Source: Janthinobacterium tructae (GTDB taxonomy: Bacteria; Pseudomonadota; Gammaproteobacteria; Burkholderiales; Burkholderiaceae_D). From it: a stretch of 64,000 nucleotides of DNA. The notes below the pieces were generated by a model. It was given only the letters and a program-made list of their open reading frames with translations. It made no database searches and was not told the DNA's origin. Position 1 is the stretch's first letter; each line of letters begins with the position of its first letter. The translations under genes and the position numbers were made by a program. Shown piece after piece: positions 1,610 through 12,568 of this stretch. The stretch spans positions 1,922,001 through 1,986,000 of the forward strand of contig NZ_CP041185.1 of NCBI RefSeq assembly GCF_006517255.1, written 5' to 3'.

Positions 1610-1700
1610 AAAAAAAAAGCCCGCTGCGGGAGCGGGCTGAATCTATTTTCTTGGAGGAAGATAGAGGAGACAGATGCATGATGCCGCATTGCAGCATATC
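1610..1700 (-). ncRNA. Candidate anti-SD small RNA, copy 1 of 4
   Basis: One of four near-identical elements of ~90 nt, all on the minus strand (others at 2798, 5203, 7614). Read 5'-3' on the minus strand it has a hairpin ATGCTGC-AAT-GCGGCAT (7 pairs), a single-stranded TGTCTCCTC, a second hairpin CTAT..ATAG whose loop region carries TTCCTCC, then GATTC and an intrinsic terminator (AGCCCGCT/AGCGGGCT stem followed by nine T). The pyrimidine motifs are complementary to Shine-Dalgarno sequences. A separate 8-bp hairpin (1726-1733/1741-1748), absent from the other copies, lies just upstream. The 5' end is not fixed by a convincing promoter. It could instead be the shared 3' end of mRNAs. Confidence 0.65.
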
Positions 1701-1798
1701 AATCCAATTACATGTTGTGATAGCGGAGATATGAATTATCCATATCTCGTACAAGTTGCGAAACAGGCAGCGACATCAACGGCAGTTGCGGCCACTAT

Positions 1799-2701
1799 TC
1801 AATCCTGGGGCGGCGAACAAAAGGCAAAGCGTTGCCGATGCATGCGCAGATAATATTTTTGTTCTTCCCTCAAAACGATGCGCAACGGAGCAGGCAAACC
1901 GATGAGTTCACGATGCCGCCCCAGCAGCGAGGGGGAGCACAACATGGCGCCATCATCAGCAAAGCTGATCAGGCCCCGATCGAACAAGGCATCCAGGGTC
2001 GCGATCAGCGGCAAACCATTATGGGGATCAAGGCGCTGCTGATCAGTGGCTCCTTGCCAGGACAGCGCATGCGAAGCACGCAGAACCGGCTCAAGATCGC
2101 ACCCCGTTACCGCACATTTTCTATCCCACAATGCGGGCAATTCGTCCCGATACCTGCCTTGGCCACGCCGGGCCTGGCACAGTATTTCTATCTCCGTTGA
2201 TCGCCCCTTCCCCCTCGAAAGCAAATCATGGATATCATTTTGCTCCACCCTGCTGGCGATCAATGCGAGGATGGCTTCCTTCCCTTTGTTCAAGGCCCCG
2301 AAAGCTTGTCGGGGATTGGTGCCGTGAAAAACGACGACTTCGGCCGAGGAGACAGGCGTACTGCGCAGATCAGCATACCAGCGCACCATGCGGTGATACT
2401 CTTCCGATTCATTCGGACTGACCACTCCCCCGCCGCGATACACGATGACTGGCGCGTCATCGAGCACCGTGCCAGCAGCAACGATGCCGATCTTGTTTAC
2501 CCATAACAGCAGGGTGTCACCGCGCCTGGGCCGCTTGATCTTTTCCAGGAACTCGGGGCCGCCACTTGTCACCGCAACGCCCCTGACTAACCATTCGTTA
2601 TGAAAACTGAACTCATTATTGGACGTTGCATCGCTATTGATGAAAAACGTGTCCGCCTCAGGAACTTTTTGCTGTCCTTTGCTCAGATTTTCATGTGCCA
2701 T
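1799..2701 (-). CDS. HNH endonuclease with PUA/EVE-like N-terminal domain, possible modification-dependent restriction enzyme
   Basis: 300 residues. The C-terminal half carries an HNH_2-type nuclease: CAVTGC, then RASHALSW, RLDPHNGLPL and LDALFDRGLISF, the usual order of metal-binding and catalytic elements. The N-terminal half contains RRGDTLLLWVNKIGIVAAGTV followed by an EYHRMVRWYADLRSTPV segment, which resembles the PUA/EVE fold that reads modified bases; this is my pattern judgement. EVE/PUA-HNH fusions are known as restriction enzymes against modified phage DNA. The gene stands alone, is visibly less GC-rich than its neighbours and is bracketed by small-RNA copies 1 and 2. No methylase partner is nearby. 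The ATG at 2701 lacks a strong ribosome site. Confidence 0.75.
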   Translation of the reverse strand: MAHENLSKGQQKVPEADTFFINSDATSNNEFSFHNEWLVRGVAVTSGGPEFLEKIKRPRRGDTLLLWVNKIGIVAAGTVLDDAPVIVYRGGGVVSPNESEEYHRMVRWYADLRSTPVSSAEVVVFHGTNPRQAFGALNKGKEAILALIASRVEQNDIHDLLSRGKGRSTEIEILCQARRGQGRYRDELPALWDRKCAVTGCDLEPVLRASHALSWQGATDQQRLDPHNGLPLIATLDALFDRGLISFADDGAMLCSPSLLGRHRELIGLPAPLRIVLREEQKYYLRMHRQRFAFCSPPQD

Positions 2702-2797
2702 GTCGGACTTTCATAGGAGGATAGCCGCGCATTGAAACATGCATTGCCACCAACGTCCACAGAATACTCTTCAGACAACAAATATGAATTTCCAGGC

Positions 2798-2887
2798 AAA
2801 AAAAAGCCCGCTGCGGGAGCGGGCTGAATCTATTTCCTTGGAGGAAGATAGAGGAGACAGATGAATGATGCGGCGTCGCAGCATATA
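2798..2887 (-). ncRNA. Candidate anti-SD small RNA, copy 2 of 4
   Basis: Same architecture as the copy at 1610: 5' hairpin ATGCTGC-GAC-GCCGCAT, TGTCTCCTC, a CTAT-c-TTCC/GGAA-ATAG hairpin with loop TCCAA, and the AGCCCGCT/AGCGGGCT terminator with eight T. Here the middle stem is better paired than in copy 1. Just upstream on the minus strand is GAATATAAAG, a possible -10 element shared with copy 3, which would place the transcript start close to the first hairpin. It lies between the stop of alaC and the start of the HNH gene, so it could also act as the alaC terminator. Confidence 0.65.
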
Positions 2888-2965
2888 AAACTACTTTATA
2901 TTCGTGATGTCAGAAATTCGCAGTAGTGATATTAGGGGCAACAGATCATTCCGTGCGACAACTTT

Positions 2966-4183
2966 TTACGTTGCCGCATGCGCTTTCCCGTCGCCAGAAC
3001 GCAACATATTCTTGATGCCCCGCAAGGCCTGCCGTACGCGGGCCTCATTTTCGATCAGGGCGAAGCGCACGTATTCGTCGCCGTACTCGCCGAAGCCGAT
3101 GCCGGGCGAGACGCTGACCCTGGCTTTTTGCAGCAGCAGCTTGGCAAACTCCAGCGAACCCAGGTGGCGGTAAGCCTCGGGGATATGCGCCCAGATGTAC
3201 ATCGACGCCTTCGGCTTTTCCACCATCCAGCCCGCTTCATGCAAGCCTTTCACCAGCACGTCGCGGCGGCGCTGGTACTGGGCGCAGATTTCCGTCACGC
3301 AGCTTTGGTCGCCTTCCAGCGCGGCAATGGCCGCCACTTGCACGGGCGTAAAACTGCCATAGTCGTGATAGCTCTTGATACGCGCCAGGGCCGACACCAG
3401 TTCCGCGTTGCCGACCATGAAACCGATGCGCCAGCCCGCCATGTTGTAGCTTTTCGACATGGTAAAAAACTCCACGGCCACATCGCGCGCACCGGGCACC
3501 TGCATGATCGACGGCGCCTTCCAGCCATCGAAGGTGATGTCGGCGTAGGCCAGATCATGCACCACCAAAATATTGTGCTGTTTTGCCAGCGCCACGACAC
3601 GCTCGAAAAACTCCAGTTCCACACATTGCGCCGTCGGGTTGGACGGAAAACCCAGCACCATCATCTTCGGCTTCGGGTAGCTTTCGCGGATGGCCCGTTC
3701 CAGTTCGGCAAAGAAATCCACGCCCGGCCCCATGCGCACGGAACGGATGTCGGCGCCGGCGATCACGGCGCCCCAGATGTGAATCGGGTAGCTGGGGTTC
3801 GGCACCAGCACCGTGTCGCCACGGTCGAGTGTCGCCAGCATCAAATGCGCCAGGCCCTCTTTCGAGCCGATGGTGACGATGGCTTCGCTGTCCGGGTCTA
3901 TGTCGACCTCGTAGCGCTTCTTGTACCAGTGCGCAATCGCGCGGCGCAGCCGCGGAATACCTTTTGACGCGGAATAGCCGTGCGTGTCGGGACGTTTCAC
4001 CGTTTCGATCAGCTTGTCGACGATGTGGGCCGGGGTGGCGCCATCGGGATTGCCCATCGACATGTCGATGATGTCCTCGCCACGGCGGCGAGCGGCCATC
4101 TTGAGCTCGGCGGTGATATTGAAAACGTAGGGGGGAAGGCGATTGATGCGCGAAAAGCTGCGCGGAGCTTGGCTGTCGGTCAT
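2966..4183 (-). CDS. alaC: Alanine-synthesizing aminotransferase AlaC
   Basis: PLP-dependent class I aminotransferase that makes alanine from pyruvate and glutamate. 405 residues, full length for the family. Diagnostic segments are [18 protein letters not shown] near residue 41, the Schiff-base lysine K244 in [13 protein letters not shown], and [10 protein letters not shown] at 180-189. ATG at 4183 is the natural start. Its stop is followed by the copy-2 element, whose terminator is correctly oriented to end this transcript. The divergent side holds a promoter and a candidate structured RNA. No linked biosynthetic partner is present. Distinguishing AlaC from AlaA/AspC relatives rests on the overall sequence and the [10 protein letters not shown] motif. 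Confidence 0.92.
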
Positions 4184-4273
4184 GATATCTCTTTACGTAA
4201 GCGCCCGGATCCGTCCGAGCGACGTTGGCACAGTGGCTGTGCCTGCAACGATATTAACCCGGTTTATCCAGCA

Positions 4274-4303
4274 CTGGCAAGGGTGCTGCAGAGCCGTTAC
4301 AAT
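4274..4303 (+). promoter_or_regulatory. Sigma-70-like promoter of the candidate structured RNA
   Basis: CTGGCA at 4274-4279 and TACAAT at 4298-4303 with an 18-base spacer. The -10 element differs from consensus at one position; the -35 matches 4 of 6. Transcription would start near 4310, just before the left arm of the long-range stem of the RNA at 4310-4478. Confidence 0.5.
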
Positions 4304-4309
4304 GAAGGC

Positions 4310-4478
4310 TGATCGAAAATGAGCGCACCGGTTGGTAACCCGGTAAGTGCCCGGCACCGTCCGGCATGCTCCCGCCCAAGCGGACCCACGGCGCTGACCC
4401 TTGGCTGTTACACCAGCCGGGGAGGTGTTCTGGTTCGTGCATTTCCCGCCGCGCCATCCCTCCCCTGCTTTTTTACTT
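4310..4478 (+). ncRNA. Candidate rod-shaped structured RNA upstream of the pentapeptide gene (6S-like or leader)
   Basis: Bases 4317-4331 pair with 4430-4444: 13 of 15 positions pair (11 Watson-Crick, 2 G-T). Inside, CCCGG at 4339-4343 pairs with CCGGG at 4417-4421, and an apical hairpin joins CCGTCCG (4357-4363) to CGGA (4381-4384) plus CGG (4389-4391). The result is an elongated rod with internal bubbles, a shape typical of 6S RNA. GGGGAGG (4419-4425) can instead pair with CCTCCCC (4459-4465), just before a T-run (4469-4475), so a terminator/antiterminator switch for the gene at 4493 is an alternative. I cannot assign a known RNA family by eye. Confidence 0.45.
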
Positions 4479-4492
4479 TAGGAATGAGACGG

Positions 4493-5176
4493 ATGGCAAC
4501 ACACGACACCGCAGCAAGCAGCATGACCCTGGACCGCGCCGGCATCGAGCAGCAACTGGCGCAATCAGTGCACCACTTCATCGAGTGCACCTTCGACGGC
4601 GAAGACTTGTCGCGCCTCGATTTGCAAGGTTGCACGTTTGAACGCTGCACCTTTGCCGAAACCAGCTTGTTCGCCAGCAAGCTGGCGCGCAGCACCTGGC
4701 GCCGCTGCCGCGCCGGCAGCGCCGATTTCGAATCCGTCGACGCCGTCGACGCCACGTTCGAAGGCTGCGACCTGAACAACACGAAATGGCGCCGCGCCAA
4801 ACTCGCCTCGGTCACGTTCCGCGGCTGCAAGCTGACGGGCGCCTCGTTCGAGGAAGTGGCCCACCTGGGCCTCACCTTCGAAGACAGCCTGCTGGTGGGC
4901 GCCGACCTGCGCGGCTTCTCGTTCCGCAAGGCCATCTTGAAACAGCTGGATTTTTCCGACGCCTACCTGGCCGGCTGCGACTTCCGCGACGCCGTCTTCG
5001 AAGGGGGCAGCTTGCGCAACGCCACCATCAAACTGGCGAAGTTCCAGGGCGCGGACTTGCGCGGCGTCGATATCGACGGTTTCAAATTGAGCGAAGCGGC
5101 GCTGCTGAAAGGCGCCGTCATCACGCATGCGCAGGCAGCGAACTTCATGCGCGCGCTCGATCTGGTAGTAATCTAA
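4493..5176 (+). CDS. Pentapeptide-repeat protein, Qnr/McbG-like
   Basis: 227 residues built almost entirely of A(D/N)LXX-type pentapeptide repeats (for example CTFERCTFAETSLF, GADLRGFSFRKAIL, GCDFRDAVFEGGSL, GADLRGVDIDG). Such proteins fold into a right-handed quadrilateral beta-helix. The length and the C-terminal helix-like tail (GAVITHAQAANFMRALDL) resemble Qnr and McbG, which mimic DNA and protect DNA gyrase; that role here is inference. The frame is open from 4319, but ATG 4493 is favoured because AGGA at 4480-4483 is nine bases ahead, whereas ATG 4484 abuts it. It lies directly downstream of the candidate structured RNA, which may be its leader. Confidence 0.8.
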   Translation: MATHDTAASSMTLDRAGIEQQLAQSVHHFIECTFDGEDLSRLDLQGCTFERCTFAETSLFASKLARSTWRRCRAGSADFESVDAVDATFEGCDLNNTKWRRAKLASVTFRGCKLTGASFEEVAHLGLTFEDSLLVGADLRGFSFRKAILKQLDFSDAYLAGCDFRDAVFEGGSLRNATIKLAKFQGADLRGVDIDGFKLSEAALLKGAVITHAQAANFMRALDLVVI

Positions 5177-5202
5177 TTGGTATTGATTTAATTTCAACAG
5201 GC

Positions 5203-5291
5203 AAAAAAAAGCCCGCTGCGGGAGCGGGCTGAATCTATTTCCTTGGAGGAGATAGAGGAGACAAATGCATCTTGCGGCATCGCGGCATATC
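5203..5291 (-). ncRNA. Candidate anti-SD small RNA, copy 3 of 4
   Basis: Same layout as the copies at 1610, 2798 and 7614: 5' hairpin around ATGCCGC-GAT-GCCGCAA (5 of 7 pairs), TGTCTCCTC, a CTAT-TCC/GGA-ATAG hairpin and the identical terminator with eight T. The middle region is one base shorter than in copy 2 (ATCTCCTCC against ATCTTCCTCC), which breaks any shared reading frame but keeps the stem. A TATAAAG element precedes it, as in copy 2. It sits between the convergent ends of the pentapeptide gene and the MFS gene. Confidence 0.65.
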
Positions 5292-5354
5292 ACGCCACTT
5301 TATATTCATGATGATAGAAATTACTGCCAGTGATAATGAGCAGACATCAGGGTT

Positions 5355-6569
5355 TCAAGCCGGGCGGCGCGTGGCCAGCGGTAAAAATTCTGCCAGCCAC
5401 ACCAGCAGGGCCAGGCCCGGAAACGCCATGCCGGTCAGCAAGGTCGCTGGCCAGCCGTAGCTGGCGTACACCCAGGCACCGATGGCCGAGCCAGCCGCAC
5501 CGCCGGCGAAGAACAGCGCGAAATACAGGCCGTTCAGGCGGCCCCGCACTTCCGCGCCCAGGCTGAAGATGGCGCGCTGGCCCAGCACCAGATTCGCCGC
5601 CACGCCCATATCGAGCACGATGGAAGCGAGCACCAGCAAGCCCAGTGCCACGTGTTTTGACGTTGGCGCAAACATCGGCAAGGCAAACGCGACGATGCCC
5701 AGCGCCAGCGCGGCAGCCGTGGCAGGCAAGGTGTGGCCCGCATCGGCCAGGCGGCCGGCAATCGGCGAGGCGACGGCGCCGGCCATGCCGACCAGGGCAA
5801 AGATGGCGATGCCCGTTTGCGACAGGCCGAACGCGGGGCTGGCCAGCACCAGCGGCGTGACGGTCCAGAACAGGCTGAAGGCGCCAAACAGGCCCGCATG
5901 GTAAGCGGCGCGGCGGCGCAGCACGGGCGTGCCCAGCAGCAGATGCCACAGCGAGGCCATCAGGGCCGGATATTTCATATTCGACACGGGCTGGCGTACG
6001 GGCAAGGCGCGGCGCAGGACTGCTGCCAGCGCCAGCATCAGTACGGCGGCGCCGCCAAACACCACGTGCCAGCTGGCGTGCGCGGCCACCAATGACGCCA
6101 CGGGACGGGCCAGCATGATGCCCAGCAACAAGCCGCTGACCACCTTGCCGACCGTCTGGCCCCGCGTCGCTTCCTGCGACAGGTGGGCGGCAAACGGCAC
6201 GATCACTTGCGCCGCCACGGAACCGAGGCCGATGGCCAGCGCAGCGGCCAGGAACACGATGGCGCCCGTGCTCATCGCCGCGACCACCAGGGCGGTGGCC
6301 GTCACCAGCAAGGCCGTGATGATCAGGCGGCGGTTTTCCAGCAAATCACCGAGCGGCACGACAAACAGCAGGCCCAGGGTATAGCCGACTTGCGTCAGCG
6401 TGACGATCAGCCCGGCCGCCTTGGCCGACAGGCCCGTCGACGCGCTGATGGGCCCGACGAGGGTTTGCGCATAATACAGATTGGCCACGATCAGGCCGGA
6501 AGCGACGGCCAGCAGCAGCACCATGGCGGGTGCAATGTCGTGGGGAGCAGAAGATGAGGCCTTGTTCAT
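5355..6569 (-). CDS. MFS transporter, 12-TM drug/metabolite efflux type
   Basis: Inner-membrane proton-coupled exporter of unknown substrate, 404 residues from ATG 6569, which has a GAGGAAACAAC ribosome site; the longer frame to 6611 lacks one. N-terminal LLLAVASGLIVANLYYAQTL and the loop-2 GDLLENRRLI segment fit the YtbD/AraJ-like branch of DHA1 transporters. Roughly twelve hydrophobic segments can be traced, with a central loop around LPVRQPVSNMKYPAL. It is divergently arranged with a LysR regulator at 6684, the common layout for a regulator controlling its neighbour. Copy 3 of the small RNA follows its stop and supplies a terminator. Confidence 0.88.
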   Translation of the reverse strand: MNKASSSAPHDIAPAMVLLLAVASGLIVANLYYAQTLVGPISASTGLSAKAAGLIVTLTQVGYTLGLLFVVPLGDLLENRRLIITALLVTATALVVAAMSTGAIVFLAAALAIGLGSVAAQVIVPFAAHLSQEATRGQTVGKVVSGLLLGIMLARPVASLVAAHASWHVVFGGAAVLMLALAAVLRRALPVRQPVSNMKYPALMASLWHLLLGTPVLRRRAAYHAGLFGAFSLFWTVTPLVLASPAFGLSQTGIAIFALVGMAGAVASPIAGRLADAGHTLPATAAALALGIVAFALPMFAPTSKHVALGLLVLASIVLDMGVAANLVLGQRAIFSLGAEVRGRLNGLYFALFFAGGAAGSAIGAWVYASYGWPATLLTGMAFPGLALLVWLAEFLPLATRRPA

Positions 6570-6622
6570 GTTGTTTCCTCGGTTCGATAGGGATGTTGCC
6601 ATTCTAGGCAAAACCGGGCCTA

Positions 6623-6642
6623 AGATAATTAGCGCATAATCT
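6623..6642. promoter_or_regulatory. Candidate LysR operator between the MFS and LysR genes
   Basis: An imperfect 20-bp palindrome with arms AGATAAT and ATAATCT, containing ATTAGCGCATAAT at 6628-6640. It lies in the 114-bp gap between the divergent MFS (start 6569) and LysR (start 6684) genes, the usual place for a LysR-type T-N11-A site. Confidence 0.4.
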
Positions 6643-6683
6643 ACCTACACTTTTCACATAAAATGAACAATGGAAGCTATCCT

Positions 6684-7610
6684 ATGGACAAGATCAAGGC
6701 CATGCAGACCTTCGTGCGCATCGTCGAAGCCAACAGCTTTTCCAAAGCGGCCGAGACCTTGAATTTGCCGCGCGCCGCGCTGACGGCCACCCTGCAAAAG
6801 CTGGAAGCCTATCTGGGCACGCAATTGCTGCAGCGAACCACGCGCCGCCTGTCCCTGACGCCGGAAGGGGCCGAGTACTTTCGCCACTGCATCGATATCC
6901 TGAAGGCCGTCGACACGGCGGAACTGGCGTTCCGTGGGCCCGACGCGACAAAACCGCGCGGCTTGTTGCGCATCAACTTGCCCAATACGGTAGGCCGCAG
7001 GCTGGTCGTGCCGCATATCGCGCGCTTCCACGCCGCCTGGCCGGACGTGCAATTGCAGCTGAGCCTGACGGACCGCCTGGTCGACCTGACGCAGGAAGGC
7101 ATCGATTGCGCCTTGCGCGTGGGCACTTTGCAAGATTCCGCCTTCATCGGCAAACAGGTCGGCCTGATGCGCTTTGTCACCTGCGCGTCCCCTGCCTACC
7201 TGGCGCGCCACGGCACGCCGCACACCCTGGCGGACCTGGCCACGCACAGCGGCATCATGCATTATTCGGGCCGCACGGGACGCGCTTTCGACTGGGATTT
7301 CCTGCAAGGCAAGGAGGTCGTGCGCGTGCAGATGGCCGGCCCCATCGCCGTCAACGATGCCGACGCCAGCGTCGCCTGCGCGCTACAAGGGCTGGGCCTG
7401 GCGCAAGCGGCCTTGTACCAGGTGCGCGAGCACCTCGACAGCGGCGCGCTGGTGGCCGTGCTGGCCGACCACCCGCCGACGCCGATGCCCATGTCGCTGT
7501 TGACGCCGCAAGGGCGGCTGGCCACGCCCAAGCTGCAGGCGTTTGCCGGCTGGCTCACGGCCCTGCTGGCCGCCCAGCCCGACGTGCAACTCCCAACGCA
7601 CAAAATCTGA
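6684..7610 (+). CDS. LysR-family transcriptional regulator
   Basis: 308 residues. N-terminal winged helix-turn-helix MDKIKAMQTFVRIVEANSFS..AAETLNLPRAALT, then the effector-binding domain from about residue 90 (GLLRINLPNTVGRRLVVPHI). The sequence belongs to the large CrgA/PA-type LysR group common in Burkholderiales. ATG 6684 is preferred over 6663 because GGAAG lies seven bases ahead of it. It probably controls the divergent MFS exporter. The small-RNA copy 4 begins only four bases after its stop on the opposite strand, so the shared terminator hairpin also sits at the end of this gene. Confidence 0.9.
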   Translation: MDKIKAMQTFVRIVEANSFSKAAETLNLPRAALTATLQKLEAYLGTQLLQRTTRRLSLTPEGAEYFRHCIDILKAVDTAELAFRGPDATKPRGLLRINLPNTVGRRLVVPHIARFHAAWPDVQLQLSLTDRLVDLTQEGIDCALRVGTLQDSAFIGKQVGLMRFVTCASPAYLARHGTPHTLADLATHSGIMHYSGRTGRAFDWDFLQGKEVVRVQMAGPIAVNDADASVACALQGLGLAQAALYQVREHLDSGALVAVLADHPPTPMPMSLLTPQGRLATPKLQAFAGWLTALLAAQPDVQLPTHKI

Positions 7611-7613
7611 GGC

Positions 7614-7703
7614 AAAAAAAAGCCCGCTGCGAGAGCGGGCTGAATCTATTTTCTTGGAGGAGAATAGAGGAGACAAGTGCATTATGCTGCATCGCGGCAT
7701 ATC
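7614..7703 (-). ncRNA. Candidate anti-SD small RNA, copy 4 of 4
   Basis: Same layout as the other three copies: 5' hairpin ATGCCGC-GAT-GCAGCAT (one mismatch), TGTCTCCTC, a CTATT..AATAG hairpin containing CTCCTCC, and the terminator stem with one loop change (CTCGC for CCCGC) and eight T. Upstream, AATTGGATTGATATGC is shared with copy 1 but not with copies 2 and 3, so the four copies form two upstream subtypes. It is separated from the prc terminator by 57 bases, so it should be transcribed independently of prc. Confidence 0.65.
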
Positions 7704-7760
7704 AATCCAATTGATTGTTGGAATGATAGAAATACGCCAAACAGATAACTGATCGGGACG

Positions 7761-7792
7761 AAAAAAAACCGGCTCCTTCAGGAGCCGGTTTT
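7761..7792 (-). terminator. Intrinsic terminator of the tail-specific protease gene
   Basis: CCGGCTCC (7769-7776), loop TTCA, GGAGCCGG (7781-7788): an 8-bp perfect GC-rich stem. On the minus strand it is followed by eight T (7761-7768), 18 bases beyond the prc stop. TTTT on the plus side makes it partly bidirectional. Confidence 0.9.
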
Positions 7793-7809
7793 CCACCTCA
7801 CAACAAGCC

Positions 7810-10077
7810 TTACTTCGCTGCCGTCACCGGCGTCGCCTTGGTATCGGCGCCATACGGCAAGACCTTGGACGCCATGCGGGTATCGGCCTTGATCAGCGCC
7901 ACTTCATCGGCCAGGATGCGCGCCGCTTCGTTCAGCAGCACGTCCTTGGCGCTCTTGGCGGCCGTTTCGGCATCGAGCTCGGCGCTGAGGGCCCGCTCGT
8001 CGCCCTGCAAGCCGTCGTCGGTGCGCAAGGCGCCCTTCACGGCGGCGATCTGCTTGGCCGTCTTGCTGGCCGCTTTCGCGCCCTTCAGCACGTCTTTTGG
8101 ATCAGGAATCACCACCAGGTCGTCGGCAGGATTCGAAATTTGTGCGATCAGGCGCTTTTCACGTGCCTTGGCGCGCGCTTCCTGGGCATCGCGCTCCTTG
8201 CGGCGCACGGTTTCATTGAGCGAAATCTGGTTTTCCTTGCGCTGCTTGACGACCAGGGCTATGTCATCGAGCAAGTACTGGAAATCCTTGTCCTTGGCCA
8301 CGCGCGCTTCATGCTTCTTGTCCAGCAGCGGCACGATATCTTTCAGGTCGCCCGTCGGCATGTATTGCGCCGGCTTGATGGCCACCCATGGCAGGGCATT
8401 GTCATAGCTCGATTCGCCAAAGTTTTCCGTGTCCGACATGGCTGGCAGCTTGATGTCGGGGGTGACGCCGCGCAACTGCGTGGTGCCGCCATTGATGCGG
8501 AAGAATTGCGCGATGGTCATTTTCAGCTCGCCGAAGCGGGCTTTCTCGCTGCCGCCGAAACGGTCGAGGTTGAACAAGGTTTGTACGGTACCCTTGCCGA
8601 AGCTGCCTTCGCCGATGATGACGCCACGGCCGTAGTCCTGCACGGCGGCGGCGAAAATTTCGGAGGCCGATGCGGAGCCGCGGTTGATCAGCACGCCCAT
8701 CGGGCCATCCCATGCCAGGCCGGCATTCGTATCACTTTCCACGTCGACCTTGCCTTCGGCATTGCGCTGCATCACGACCGGGCCCTTGTCGATGAACAGG
8801 CCCGTCAGTTCGACGGCTTCGTTCAGCGAACCGCCGCCGTTGTTGCGCAAGTCGATCAGGACGTTGTCGACCTTATCCTTCTTCAACTCGGTCAGCAAAC
8901 GGCTGACGTCGCGCGTGGCGCTCTTGAAATCTTTGTCGCCACGGCGGCGCGCCTCGAAATCCTGGTAGAACGTCGGCAGGGAAATGACGCCGATGCGGCG
9001 CTTGACGCCGTTTTCACGCACTTCGATGACCGATTTCTTCGCCGCCTGCTCTTCCATGCTGATTTTCTTGCGCACCAGCGGCAAGACCACGTGCTTGGCG
9101 TCCGGGCCGGCGTCGGCCGGCAGGATATCGAGGCGCACCACGGAATCCTTGGCGCCGCGGATCAGCTGCACCACGTCGTCGATGCGCATGCCCAGTACTT
9201 CGGTGATGGGGCCGCTTTCGCCCTGCCCCACGCCGACGATGCGGTCGCCCACTTTCAGCTTGCCCGACAAGCCGGCCGGGCTGCCCGGCACGACTTCGCG
9301 CACCACCGTATATTCATCGCGCGTCTGCAGCACGGCGCCGATGCCTTCAAGCGACAGGCGCATGGCGATGTCGAAGTTGTCCGAGGCGCGCGGGCCCAGG
9401 TAATTGGTATGCGGTTCGATCGACATGGCGTAAGCGTTCATGAAGATCTGGAACACATCTTCGCTGTTGAGCTTGCGCGAACGGGTGGTGTAGCTTTCAT
9501 AGCGCTTGTCCAGCGTTTCGCGGATGGCCTTGTCTTCCTTGCCCGCCAGTTTCAGGCGCAGCCAGTCGTTCTTGACACGCTTGCGCCACAGGTCGCGCAC
9601 TTCTTCGTCGTTCTTCGGCCAGGCCGCCTTTTCGCGGTCGATCTGGTAGCTCTCGTCGGCGGCAAAGTCGAACTTGGTTTTGAGTAATTCACGCGCATAC
9701 GCCATGCGCTCGTCGAAACGCTGCTGGTACAGGTTGTAAATGGCAAACGGCGCCGTCAAGTCTTCATTGATGATGGCATCGTCCAGCCGGGTGCGCAGCG
9801 GGGCGAAACGGTCGATGTCGGCCTGCACGAAAAACAGTTTTTCCGCGTCCAGCGACTTGAAATAGCGGTCGAAGATTTTCTCCGACATGGCGTCATCGAG
9901 CGGCGTGGCCTTGTAATGGACGCGCGTCAAGACGCGCGATGCCCACAAGGCGGCCTGCGTTTGCTGGGCCAGCGGCTTCATGGTGAGCGGAGGAGCGGCG
10001 CTCTTGTCCGTCTGGGCTGCGCCAGCGTGGGCTGACAGGGCGAGCACCAGGGTGACCAGCATCATTTGCTTCTTCAT
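7810..10077 (-). CDS. prc: Carboxy-terminal (tail-specific) processing protease Prc
   Basis: Periplasmic serine protease that trims C-termini and degrades misfolded or ssrA-tagged envelope proteins. 755 residues with signal peptide MKKQMMLVTLVLALSAHAGA. Order of parts: N-terminal helical domain, PDZ domain around residues 240-335 (LEGIGAVL, GSPAGLSGKLKVGDRI), S41 protease core, and a long C-terminal DUF3340-type domain. The catalytic Ser-Lys pair is S470 (NRGSASASEIFAAAVQDYG) and K495 (GSFGKGTVQ), with D481 in the same spacing as E. coli Prc. ATG at 10077 has GGAGAAGCCG ahead. It is a single-gene unit with its own terminator. Confidence 0.96.
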   Translation of the reverse strand: MKKQMMLVTLVLALSAHAGAAQTDKSAAPPLTMKPLAQQTQAALWASRVLTRVHYKATPLDDAMSEKIFDRYFKSLDAEKLFFVQADIDRFAPLRTRLDDAIINEDLTAPFAIYNLYQQRFDERMAYARELLKTKFDFAADESYQIDREKAAWPKNDEEVRDLWRKRVKNDWLRLKLAGKEDKAIRETLDKRYESYTTRSRKLNSEDVFQIFMNAYAMSIEPHTNYLGPRASDNFDIAMRLSLEGIGAVLQTRDEYTVVREVVPGSPAGLSGKLKVGDRIVGVGQGESGPITEVLGMRIDDVVQLIRGAKDSVVRLDILPADAGPDAKHVVLPLVRKKISMEEQAAKKSVIEVRENGVKRRIGVISLPTFYQDFEARRRGDKDFKSATRDVSRLLTELKKDKVDNVLIDLRNNGGGSLNEAVELTGLFIDKGPVVMQRNAEGKVDVESDTNAGLAWDGPMGVLINRGSASASEIFAAAVQDYGRGVIIGEGSFGKGTVQTLFNLDRFGGSEKARFGELKMTIAQFFRINGGTTQLRGVTPDIKLPAMSDTENFGESSYDNALPWVAIKPAQYMPTGDLKDIVPLLDKKHEARVAKDKDFQYLLDDIALVVKQRKENQISLNETVRRKERDAQEARAKAREKRLIAQISNPADDLVVIPDPKDVLKGAKAASKTAKQIAAVKGALRTDDGLQGDERALSAELDAETAAKSAKDVLLNEAARILADEVALIKADTRMASKVLPYGADTKATPVTAAK

Positions 10078-10597
10078 CGGCTTCTCCGAAAATTAGTTGA
10101 ATCAATTCCAGGCGGCGCAGCTATGCATGCGCCAGCCAGCAAGACAGTAAGGGGAATACACGACTGGTCTGCATATTATTCTACAGGATACGGCCTGGCA
10201 GTCTCCCATGGAAGATCAGTTTCTTCCTGGAAGCTTAAACGCGGATTAAAGGCCGCGTCTCATTCATTACAAACTGAAACATTCGTGACAAAAATCGCAT
10301 CGCCCGCCAGCGATGAAGATCAACTTGCGCCATTGAAATCAGAAAAGTCAATGGGGCATTTTCGCAACGCTTGATGCAGACGATGTTTTTGTGCAAAAAA
10401 ATGATTCTTGCGGGAAACACTTAGTAACAAAAGGCAAGCAACATGCTATCATCGCGGCCTGAAATTTTGCTTGCACGCGTGCAGCTCTCAAGCGGGCACG
10501 CCTCCGCTTCAAGCGCATCCCCCACCAGATCTCCTCCCCATGTGTCATGTCATGACCAGGAATGGCCGAGCTGATTACCCTTTGCCAGACTCACACT
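10078..10597. other. Intergenic region between divergent prc and chemoreceptor genes
   Basis: 520 bases without a convincing gene. It should hold the promoters of both flanking genes. The only clear element I see is a perfect 12-bp palindrome TGCACGCGTGCA at 10472-10483. Short open frames here have no ribosome sites or recognisable sequence. Confidence 0.5.
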
Positions 10598-12568
10598 ATG
10601 CCTACAAAATCGTTCTCCCCCCGCCATTGGAGTGTCGGCGGCAAGATTACCGTCTTCACGTTTGCCCTCGTCAGCCTGATCCTCGCCAGCCTGACGACCT
10701 TGATCAGCATCCGCATCTCGACCGTACTGGAACAGCGCGCCGAAGCGGCCGTCACCAGCGAGCTCAATAGCGTCATGACGACCACGCAAGTATTCCACAC
10801 GGCCATGGTCAACGAGGCGGCCAGCTTCGCCCGCCTGTTCGCGGCCGAATTTCCCGGCCCGTTCACGGTCGACGCGGGCGCCATGGTGGCCGTGGCCGGC
10901 AAGGCCACGCCCGCCCTGGCCAACGGCGGCAAGGTGCTCAACCTCGACACGGCCGTGGTCGACCGCTACACGGCGCAGACGGGCGTGATCGCCACCATCT
11001 TTGCCGCCAACGGCGATGAATTCGTGCGCATCAGCACCTCGCTGAAAAAGCAGGATGGCGAACGCGCCATCGGTACCCAGCTCGACCACAATCACCCCAG
11101 CTATGCGCCGCTGCACGCAGGCCAGCGCTTCGTTGGCATGGCCACCTTGTTTGGCAAGCAATACATCACCCAGTACGATCCCGTGCGCGATGCTGGCGGC
11201 AAGGTGGTGGGCGTGCTGTTCATCGGTCTCGATATCAGCAAGAATCTGGCCATGCTGAAAGAGAAGATTCGCCAGGTCAAGATCGGCCAGACGGGCTACA
11301 TCTATATCGTCGACACGGCCCCCGGTGCCAATTACGGCCACCTGGTGCTGCACCCGAACAGCGAAGGCAAGAGCGCGCTCGATTTCAAGGCCAGCGATGG
11401 CCGCCTGTTCATCCAGGAAATGCTGGCGCAGAAAGACGGTGCCATGCGCTATACGTGGACGGCGCCGGGCGAAACGAGTGCCAGCGCGCGCGAAAAGCAG
11501 CTGTATTACCGTCAATTCAAGGAATGGCAATGGATCATCGCGGGCGGCACGTTCACGGACGAGATCACCCTGGAGGCGCGCCAGCTGCGCAAGCAGCTGG
11601 CCATTTCCGGCTTCATCGCCCTGCTCGTCTTCGCCCTGCTGCTGTACTGGCTGGTGCGCGCGCTCGTCTCGCGCCCGCTGGCCGCCGCCGAAACGGCCGC
11701 CGCGCAGATTGCCGCCGGCGACCTGACGGTACACCTCGATACGACCAGCATGGACGAAATCGGCCGCCTGCTGCGCGCCATGAACCGCATCAGCGACAAC
11801 CTCTCGCAAGTGGTCGGCAATGTGCGCGGCAGCGCCGGGCAAATCGCCACGGCGTCCGGTGAAATCGCCAGCGGCAATCTGGATTTGTCGAGCCGCACGG
11901 AACAGCAAGCCAGTTCGCTGGAAGAAACGGCCGCCTCGATGGAAGAACTGAGTTCCACCGTGCGCCAGAACGTCGATCACGCACAGCAGGCAAGCCGGCT
12001 GGCGCGCGACTCGTCGAGCCTGGCAGCCGAAGGCGGCGCGGCCGTAGCGCAAGTGGCCAGCACCATGGACGCCATCCGCAGCTCGTCAAGCAAGATCGCC
12101 GACATCATCGGCGTGATCGACGGCATCGCCTTCCAGACGAATATCCTGGCCTTGAACGCGGCCGTGGAAGCGGCGCGGGCCGGCGAGCAGGGACGCGGCT
12201 TTGCCGTCGTCGCCACCGAGGTGCGCACCCTGGCGCAGCGCTCGACGGCCGCCGCGAAAGACATCAAGGATCTGATCCAGGCATCCGCCGGCACGGTGGA
12301 CCTGGGCCACGCCCAAGTGAGCCAGGCCAGCGCCACCATGGATACCGTGGTGGCCAGCGTGCAGCAAGTGAGCGCCATCATGGCCGAGATCGCGCAGGCC
12401 AGCGACGAGCAGCGCAGCGGCATCGAGCAAGTCAACCAGGCCATCGCCCAGATGGACCAGGTGACCCAGCAGAACGCGGCCCTGGTGGAAGAAGCGGCCG
12501 CGGCGGCCGACGCCTTGCAGGAACAGGCGCAGGAGCTGAACCAGGTGGTGGGCGTGTTCAAGCTGTAA
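10598..12568 (+). CDS. Methyl-accepting chemotaxis protein with Cache 3/Cache 2-type sensor
   Basis: 656 residues. TM1 near 15-40 ([19 protein letters not shown]), a periplasmic sensor of ~290 residues with [19 protein letters not shown] and [21 protein letters not shown], the Cache 3/Cache 2 fusion pattern, TM2 near 345 ([20 protein letters not shown]), HAMP, then the signalling hairpin with tip [20 protein letters not shown]. Receptors of this type usually sense small organic acids; no ligand can be inferred. No CheR-binding C-terminal pentapeptide is present (it ends GVFKL). The start is uncertain: ATG 10598 lacks a clear ribosome site and the frame is open to 10562. Confidence 0.92.

Follow-up and report, generated by a model that had tools for sequence, protein, structure and literature searches.

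The 64,000-nt stretch of Janthinobacterium tructae DNA analysed here (the window) carries four near-identical elements on its minus strand, raising the question of what these repeats encode and on what they might act. An initial annotation had placed them between unrelated genes, each ending in a terminator with 8-9 T, and this description held. An Rfam scan of the window matched all four elements to RF02278, 'Betaproteobacteria toxic sRNA', at 59.9-62.6 bits over the full 64-position model, each above the gathering score of 50 bits and far beyond chance (E = 3.2e-10 to 1.5e-9 in the 64 kb search). At the gathering cut-off the scan returned RF02278 four times and one tRNA, making RF02278 the sole Rfam RNA family for the elements; on these matches, the four repeats are copies of that catalogued family (Table 1). 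A 61-62 nt core, TGTCTCCTCTAT...GCGGGCTTTTTTTT, is almost unchanged across the copies. RNA folding gave two hairpins in every core (z -3.5 to -4.4), with the C/U-rich 5' end and a C/U-rich loop single-stranded and the second hairpin forming the terminator, whose T-run is 8 in copies 2-4 and 9 in copy 1. The surrounding genes are unrelated by Pfam and encode a MetE-type methionine synthase, an HNH protein, an aminotransferase and a pentapeptide-repeat protein, further neighbours being an MFS transporter, a LysR regulator and a tail-specific protease.

Table 1. Coordinates of the RF02278 copies, their upstream blocks and related sites (window positions unless a G000:C1 or locus position is given)
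Feature	Position	Strand	Rfam bits	Fold z	Remarks
RF02278 sRNA copy 1	1611..1672	(-)	62.5	-3.5	5' UGUCUCCUC seed, two hairpins, terminator; T-run reaching 1610
RF02278 sRNA copy 2	2798..2859	(-)	62.5	-4.0	
RF02278 sRNA copy 3	5203..5263	(-)	59.9	-4.4	
RF02278 sRNA copy 4	7614..7675	(-)	62.6	-4.0	
Upstream block of copy 1 (-74..-1)	1673..1746	(-)			Dyad 1681-1697, overlapping -10-like box 1678-1683
Upstream block of copy 2	2860..2933	(-)			Dyad 2868-2884; -10-like box 2865-2870
Upstream block of copy 3	5264..5337	(-)			Dyad (one mismatch) 5272-5288; -10-like box 5269-5274
Upstream block of copy 4	7676..7749	(-)			Dyad 7684-7700; -10-like box 7681-7686
Extra cluster copy, RF02278	G000:C1:1920276-1920336	As window copies			
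Extra cluster copy, RF02278	G000:C1:1920965-1921025	As window copies			
Copy outside cluster, L005	G000:C1 3728782				Above cut-off
Copy outside cluster, L008	G000:C1 3118009				Above cut-off
Copy outside cluster, L009	G000:C1 5464432				Above cut-off
Weak RF02278 match, L010	G000:C1:3823160-3823219		33.4		Divergent seed TGTCTCTTT
Perfect dyad in L104	1501-1517 (G000:C1:3783520)				Upstream of a TonB-receptor gene

The local clustering noted in the initial annotation was also found, at a different size. A genome-wide search with the Rfam model returned nine RF02278 copies above the cut-off and one weak match; the cluster comprises six same-strand copies, not four, in a 9.4-kb interval, and two of these lie shortly before the window start. 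Three more copies and the weak match lie elsewhere. The weak match (L010) may be decayed or unrelated. At L008, a clear promoter (TTGCAC-17-TATAGT) adjoins the seed. All 36 other genomes of the genus that were searched have 3-12 matches at E<=0.001, and at the same threshold matches occur in 277 of the 294 genomes of the wider GTDB family, covering 42 of 44 genera, so that several copies per genome, as in RF02278 generally, are the rule in this genome and the relatives searched. When 20-kb regions picked around matches in 20 relatives were compared along with that of this genome, 19 of the 21 held 3-6 copies, and no region had copies on both strands. Eighteen of the 20 relatives' regions align over 4,983-11,000 of the 11,000 cluster bases, the remaining two (L067, L068) sharing only about 2,400-2,600, and the aligned pieces average 81-95% identity. 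In genomes of genus g46 (G137, G170, G081, G213 and others), RF02278 copies occur in same-strand pairs spaced by about 210 nt, which could be one way in which copies multiply locally.

RNAs of this kind are already known, and the copy cluster is a new instance of them. The CcsR/cuckoo RNAs of alphaproteobacteria are likewise multi-copy with CCUCC-type anti-SD (Shine-Dalgarno) loops, and the initial annotation had proposed kinship with them; the Rfam scan lent this membership no support, the elements matching RF02278. Herbaspirillum is a genus of the Oxalobacteraceae, a family for which no description of such RNAs had been claimed to exist. RF02278 copies have been reported in Herbaspirillum (PMC7011215, PMC6337395), and because the family is already published, the claim of novelty fails. 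The H. seropedicae tsRNAs (Hsnc059, Hsnc063, Hsnc086 and Hsnc107) belong to the same Rfam family as the window copies, number four compared with nine here, and have stated sizes of 93-115 nt; the northern blots described alongside those sizes are of other sRNAs (PMC7011215, PMC6337395). The members in Burkholderia cenocepacia are the 'double-hairpin RNAs' ncS03, ncS05, ncS27 and ncS62, reported as independently transcribed short RNAs with a shared upstream motif in three of the four copies; ncS62 has a published length of 57 nt, and ncS27 is a 92-nt member whose leader gets processed (PMC5688073). Like the window copies, they combine two hairpins, a C/U-rich 5' end and loop, a terminator and several copies per genome. 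The three to five Burkholderia homologues are described as spread through the genome and not in tandem (PMC5688073), whereas six of the nine copies above the cut-off here form one same-strand cluster. That study also likens the double-hairpin RNAs to Neisseria NmsR, a tandem pair of homologous copies with two C/U-rich stretches directed against the RBS of metabolic genes (PMC5688073). Among the literature matches listed, none described RF02278 RNAs in Janthinobacterium. New here are the genus-wide cluster, a promoter dyad found only in Janthinobacterium and near relatives, and, for this genome, the motif GGAGACA ahead of uptake genes.

Each copy is preceded by a conserved block of ~74 bp, which we read as a promoter. 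Defined by column conservation over 91 copies from the genus, the blocks are invariant at TAT (-72..-70), AT (-58/-57) and AT (-49/-48), and A.TGG is conserved at -36..-32. GTCTCCTCTA occurs in 91/91 genus copies, partly by selection as the copies were found with the core profile, and a CA[TA][ACG][AC]T box, a pattern drawn after the alignment was seen, lies 5-6 nt ahead of the seed in 91/91. From 36 loci, which were top-scoring Rfam matches and not a random sample, 21 copies belonging to other genera were selected, on inspection, as having the promoter next to the seed; in 20/21 of them the best -10 box is at -11/-12, ending 5-6 nt ahead of TGTCTCC. The loci left out were nine with TGTCTCCTCCACCC and a different upstream region, three from the same genus and three mispositioned (L074, L092, L097). 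TATACT stands 5-6 nt ahead of the seed in 15/21 and AATTGG at -38/-37 in 14/21; at the AATTGG position, Janthinobacterium copies read AATTGG in 44/91 and AAGTGG in 39/91. In a replicon of B. cenocepacia, the promoter scoring best, TTGCAA-17-TAAATT, falls just ahead of the seed, and TGTCTCC...TTTTTT spans 57 nt, matching ncS62 in length. Within Janthinobacterium, an E. coli-type sigma-70 score ranked the -11/-12 box as the best site in only 20/91 copies and among the top three in 44/91, so the putative start site there rests on the alignment with other genera. The low rank could reflect an activator-dependent promoter or a different start.

The inverted repeat ATGCnGC-n3-GCnGCAT, taken in the initial annotation for the 5' hairpin of a ~90-nt RNA, is real as a repeat (perfect in every window copy except the 5203 copy, which has one mismatch) and doubtful as RNA structure. 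When the 89-90 nt elements were folded, only one of the four copies gave the hairpin in its stated register, and one other gave it with the register shifted. The dyad is more likely part of the promoter, overlapping the -10-like box, with the transcript beginning at about TGTCTCC. We consider it unlikely that the RNA is ~90 nt long and begins with this hairpin, perhaps processed off as in ncS27 and S17, even though the repeat is exact in 56/91 genus copies and its seven pairs are kept in 558/637 cells versus 0.11-0.44 in slid versions. Long, processed family members do exist (ncS27 at 92 nt, PMC5688073; S17L, which yields S17S, PMC11722255), and the ncS27 precedent leaves some room for a longer primary RNA. 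Set against this, the single freely varying pair of the hairpin is kept in 49/91 genus copies, its outer pair is A-A in 18/91, equal to the number with a CAAGAT box, and a T beyond the hairpin, at -6, never varies, which fits the needs of a -10 box. Among the distant copies with this promoter type, 0/21 have the exact dyad and 3/21 its inner core, while most of them keep the TATACT box. An RNA hairpin upstream of the seed was rejected as weakly supported by structure. Because the -10 boxes lie just ahead of the seed, the exact dyad is absent in distant copies and the published length of ncS62 is 57 nt, the inverted repeat probably lies in promoter DNA and not in the RNA, the case being weaker inside Janthinobacterium.

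The dyad together with the seed was found in 35 stretches, all from Janthinobacterium, Duganella, Pseudoduganella, Massilia, Rugamonas or an 'Oxalobacteraceae bacterium'. The dyad as a widely shared operator was considered and rejected; a search allowing one mismatch gave 151 sites per strand versus 23 for the backward control, and the exact sites among the matches listed were four sRNA promoters and two others, one near a TonB receptor gene. The TonB-receptor gene downstream of the perfect dyad in L104 itself carries GGAGACA (L255), possibly by chance. A second family type, distinguished by eye (e.g. L024, L070, L093), has its -10-like box ~60 nt upstream and therefore would have a longer leader, as in S17.

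The seed UGUCUCC is the complement of GGAGACA, and this motif is frequent ahead of genes in the J. tructae genome. GGAGACA was the commonest 7-mer ahead of starts (13 of 610 called genes), in a count whose start choice favoured GGAGG-like sites; in a second count of GGAGNNN ahead of ORF starts it was level third with 17, after GGAGCAG (20) and GGAGCCG (18) and beside GGAGCGC (17), and 17 of its 45 occurrences lay ahead of an ORF, among the highest fractions of GGAGNNN. The pattern GGAGACAN{2,8}ATG had 115 whole-genome sites versus 13 for the backward control, compared with 72 versus 37 for the permuted motif GGAGCAA. The gene set was built from 100 of the 115 sites, at least six of which are complements of the sRNA copies themselves; 68 GGAGACA genes were collected by script (fetched stretches, with ORF and codon-composition filters), all were scanned against Pfam, and 61 had a match.

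Uptake components, assigned by eye, made up 23 of these 61 genes and none of 29 Pfam-positive controls (p = 4e-5); for the controls, 201 were gathered in a 0.86 Mb sample and 40 scanned, including some that are plainly not real genes. The enrichment persisted when the 23 genes were collapsed to 18 loci (p = 2e-4) and when an arguable AbrB-family control was counted as uptake (1/29, p 3e-4). Since catabolic enzymes also occur among the controls, only uptake enrichment was tested. The 23 comprise ten solute-binding proteins, three permeases, an ABC ATPase, two MFS transporters, an amino-acid permease, MadL, two porins, OmpW and two TonB receptors. Other GGAGACA genes include four AMP-binding enzymes, a thiolase, a PaaA-type protein, urocanase, formylglutamate amidohydrolase, XylR and LacI types and two chemoreceptors. 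The 5' end is thus complementary to SD sites of uptake genes, as for an sRNA of the S17 or ncS27 type.

Published work on these relatives backs the part of the initial annotation that saw a multi-copy, base-pairing sRNA repressing translation through anti-SD-like C/U stretches. Bordetella pertussis S17 shares the SD-occlusion logic and the C/U-rich 5' end of the copies here; it is reported in a preprint to repress BP2158 through a 5' site, with compensatory mutations restoring repression, which supports SD occlusion by the same 5' end (PMC11722255). Its candidate targets include 32 transporter genes or operons together with almost every phenylacetate gene, and the preprint reports no detectable effect on two other tested candidates (PMC11722255). 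S17 is raised in the Bvg+ mode, and S17S is cut by RNase E from a long leader (PMC11722255), whereas the copies here have a promoter-like block right at the seed. In B. cenocepacia, ncS27 overexpression slowed growth and silencing sped it up, and its predicted targets are mainly in carbon and amino-acid transport and metabolism (PMC5688073); a review also describes effects on carbon use (PMC10987360). Because the S17 and ncS27 studies point to uptake and catabolic genes, a catabolic role has already been proposed in print.

A general anti-SD toxin that mimics the 16S 3' end and shuts down translation globally is, by comparison, improbable. The 16S tail GGATCACCTCCTT, found at eight places in the genome, does share CTCC/CCTCC with the sRNA, so the mimicry put forward in the initial annotation is partly borne out, and the family takes the name 'toxic' from growth inhibition of E. 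coli (PMC5688073, PMC4603805). However, the conserved sRNA segment continues as UGUCUCC, an extension that the 16S tail does not match, and published accounts have S17 and ncS27 acting on specific genes for uptake and catabolism (PMC11722255, PMC10987360). S17 was also described as not toxic in exponential E. coli, its overexpression leaving growth unimpaired (PMC11722255). A repeat-like or selfish element (REP/MITE-like) with no RNA function, suggested by dispersed copies among unrelated genes within a few kb, is hardly credible given the terminator, the conserved upstream block, the near-invariant seed throughout the genus and the published transcripts of family members (PMC5688073).

Across genomes, no clear link emerged between the preference for GGAGACA and the sRNA. 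Using the first-listed genome of each of 44 genera (44 of 294 genomes, with counts transferred by hand), copy number correlated with net GGAGACA density (rho 0.58; size-corrected 0.44, p 0.003), compared with rho 0.23 (size-corrected 0.28) for the permuted motif, and showed no significant correlation with the GGAGACA/GGAGCAA ratio (rho 0.17). Among 24 order-level genomes, motif preference did not split by sRNA presence: G054, with zero RF02278 matches, has 52 GGAGACA versus 24 GGAGCAA sites, and G049 and G056, with one match each, have 30 versus 48 and 54 versus 67.

Taken together, we think it very probable that the clustered RF02278 copies produce, from their own promoters, SD-blocking sRNAs of ~62 nt that exert catabolite-repression-like control over uptake and catabolism genes. 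Each copy would be transcribed separately, with the RNA starting at or next to UGUCUCC and stopping at the terminator. The single-stranded 5' UGUCUCCUC, aided by the CCUCC loop, would then pair with GGAGACA-type SD sites on solute-uptake and catabolic mRNAs and block the ribosome, and the outcome may resemble catabolite repression. More speculatively, GGAGACA might, in Janthinobacterium and its relatives, be a shared SD address on around a hundred genes for uptake and catabolism that is recognised by about nine redundant RNAs whose dose is set by a single dyad-binding regulator, an arrangement we regard as somewhat less than an even bet. Most of the RNAs would come from the six-copy cluster, whose promoters carry the lineage-specific 17-bp dyad over the -10 box, and a putative DNA-binding regulator could there tune the dose of a catabolite-repression-like RNA system.

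With this cluster, Janthinobacterium can be counted among organisms in which a conserved and little-studied sRNA family is present at a large, clustered dose, and it offers a directly testable target code, GGAGACA, together with a promoter dyad. Should the regulon be borne out, RF02278 RNAs would become candidates for a general mechanism of catabolite control in Burkholderiales.
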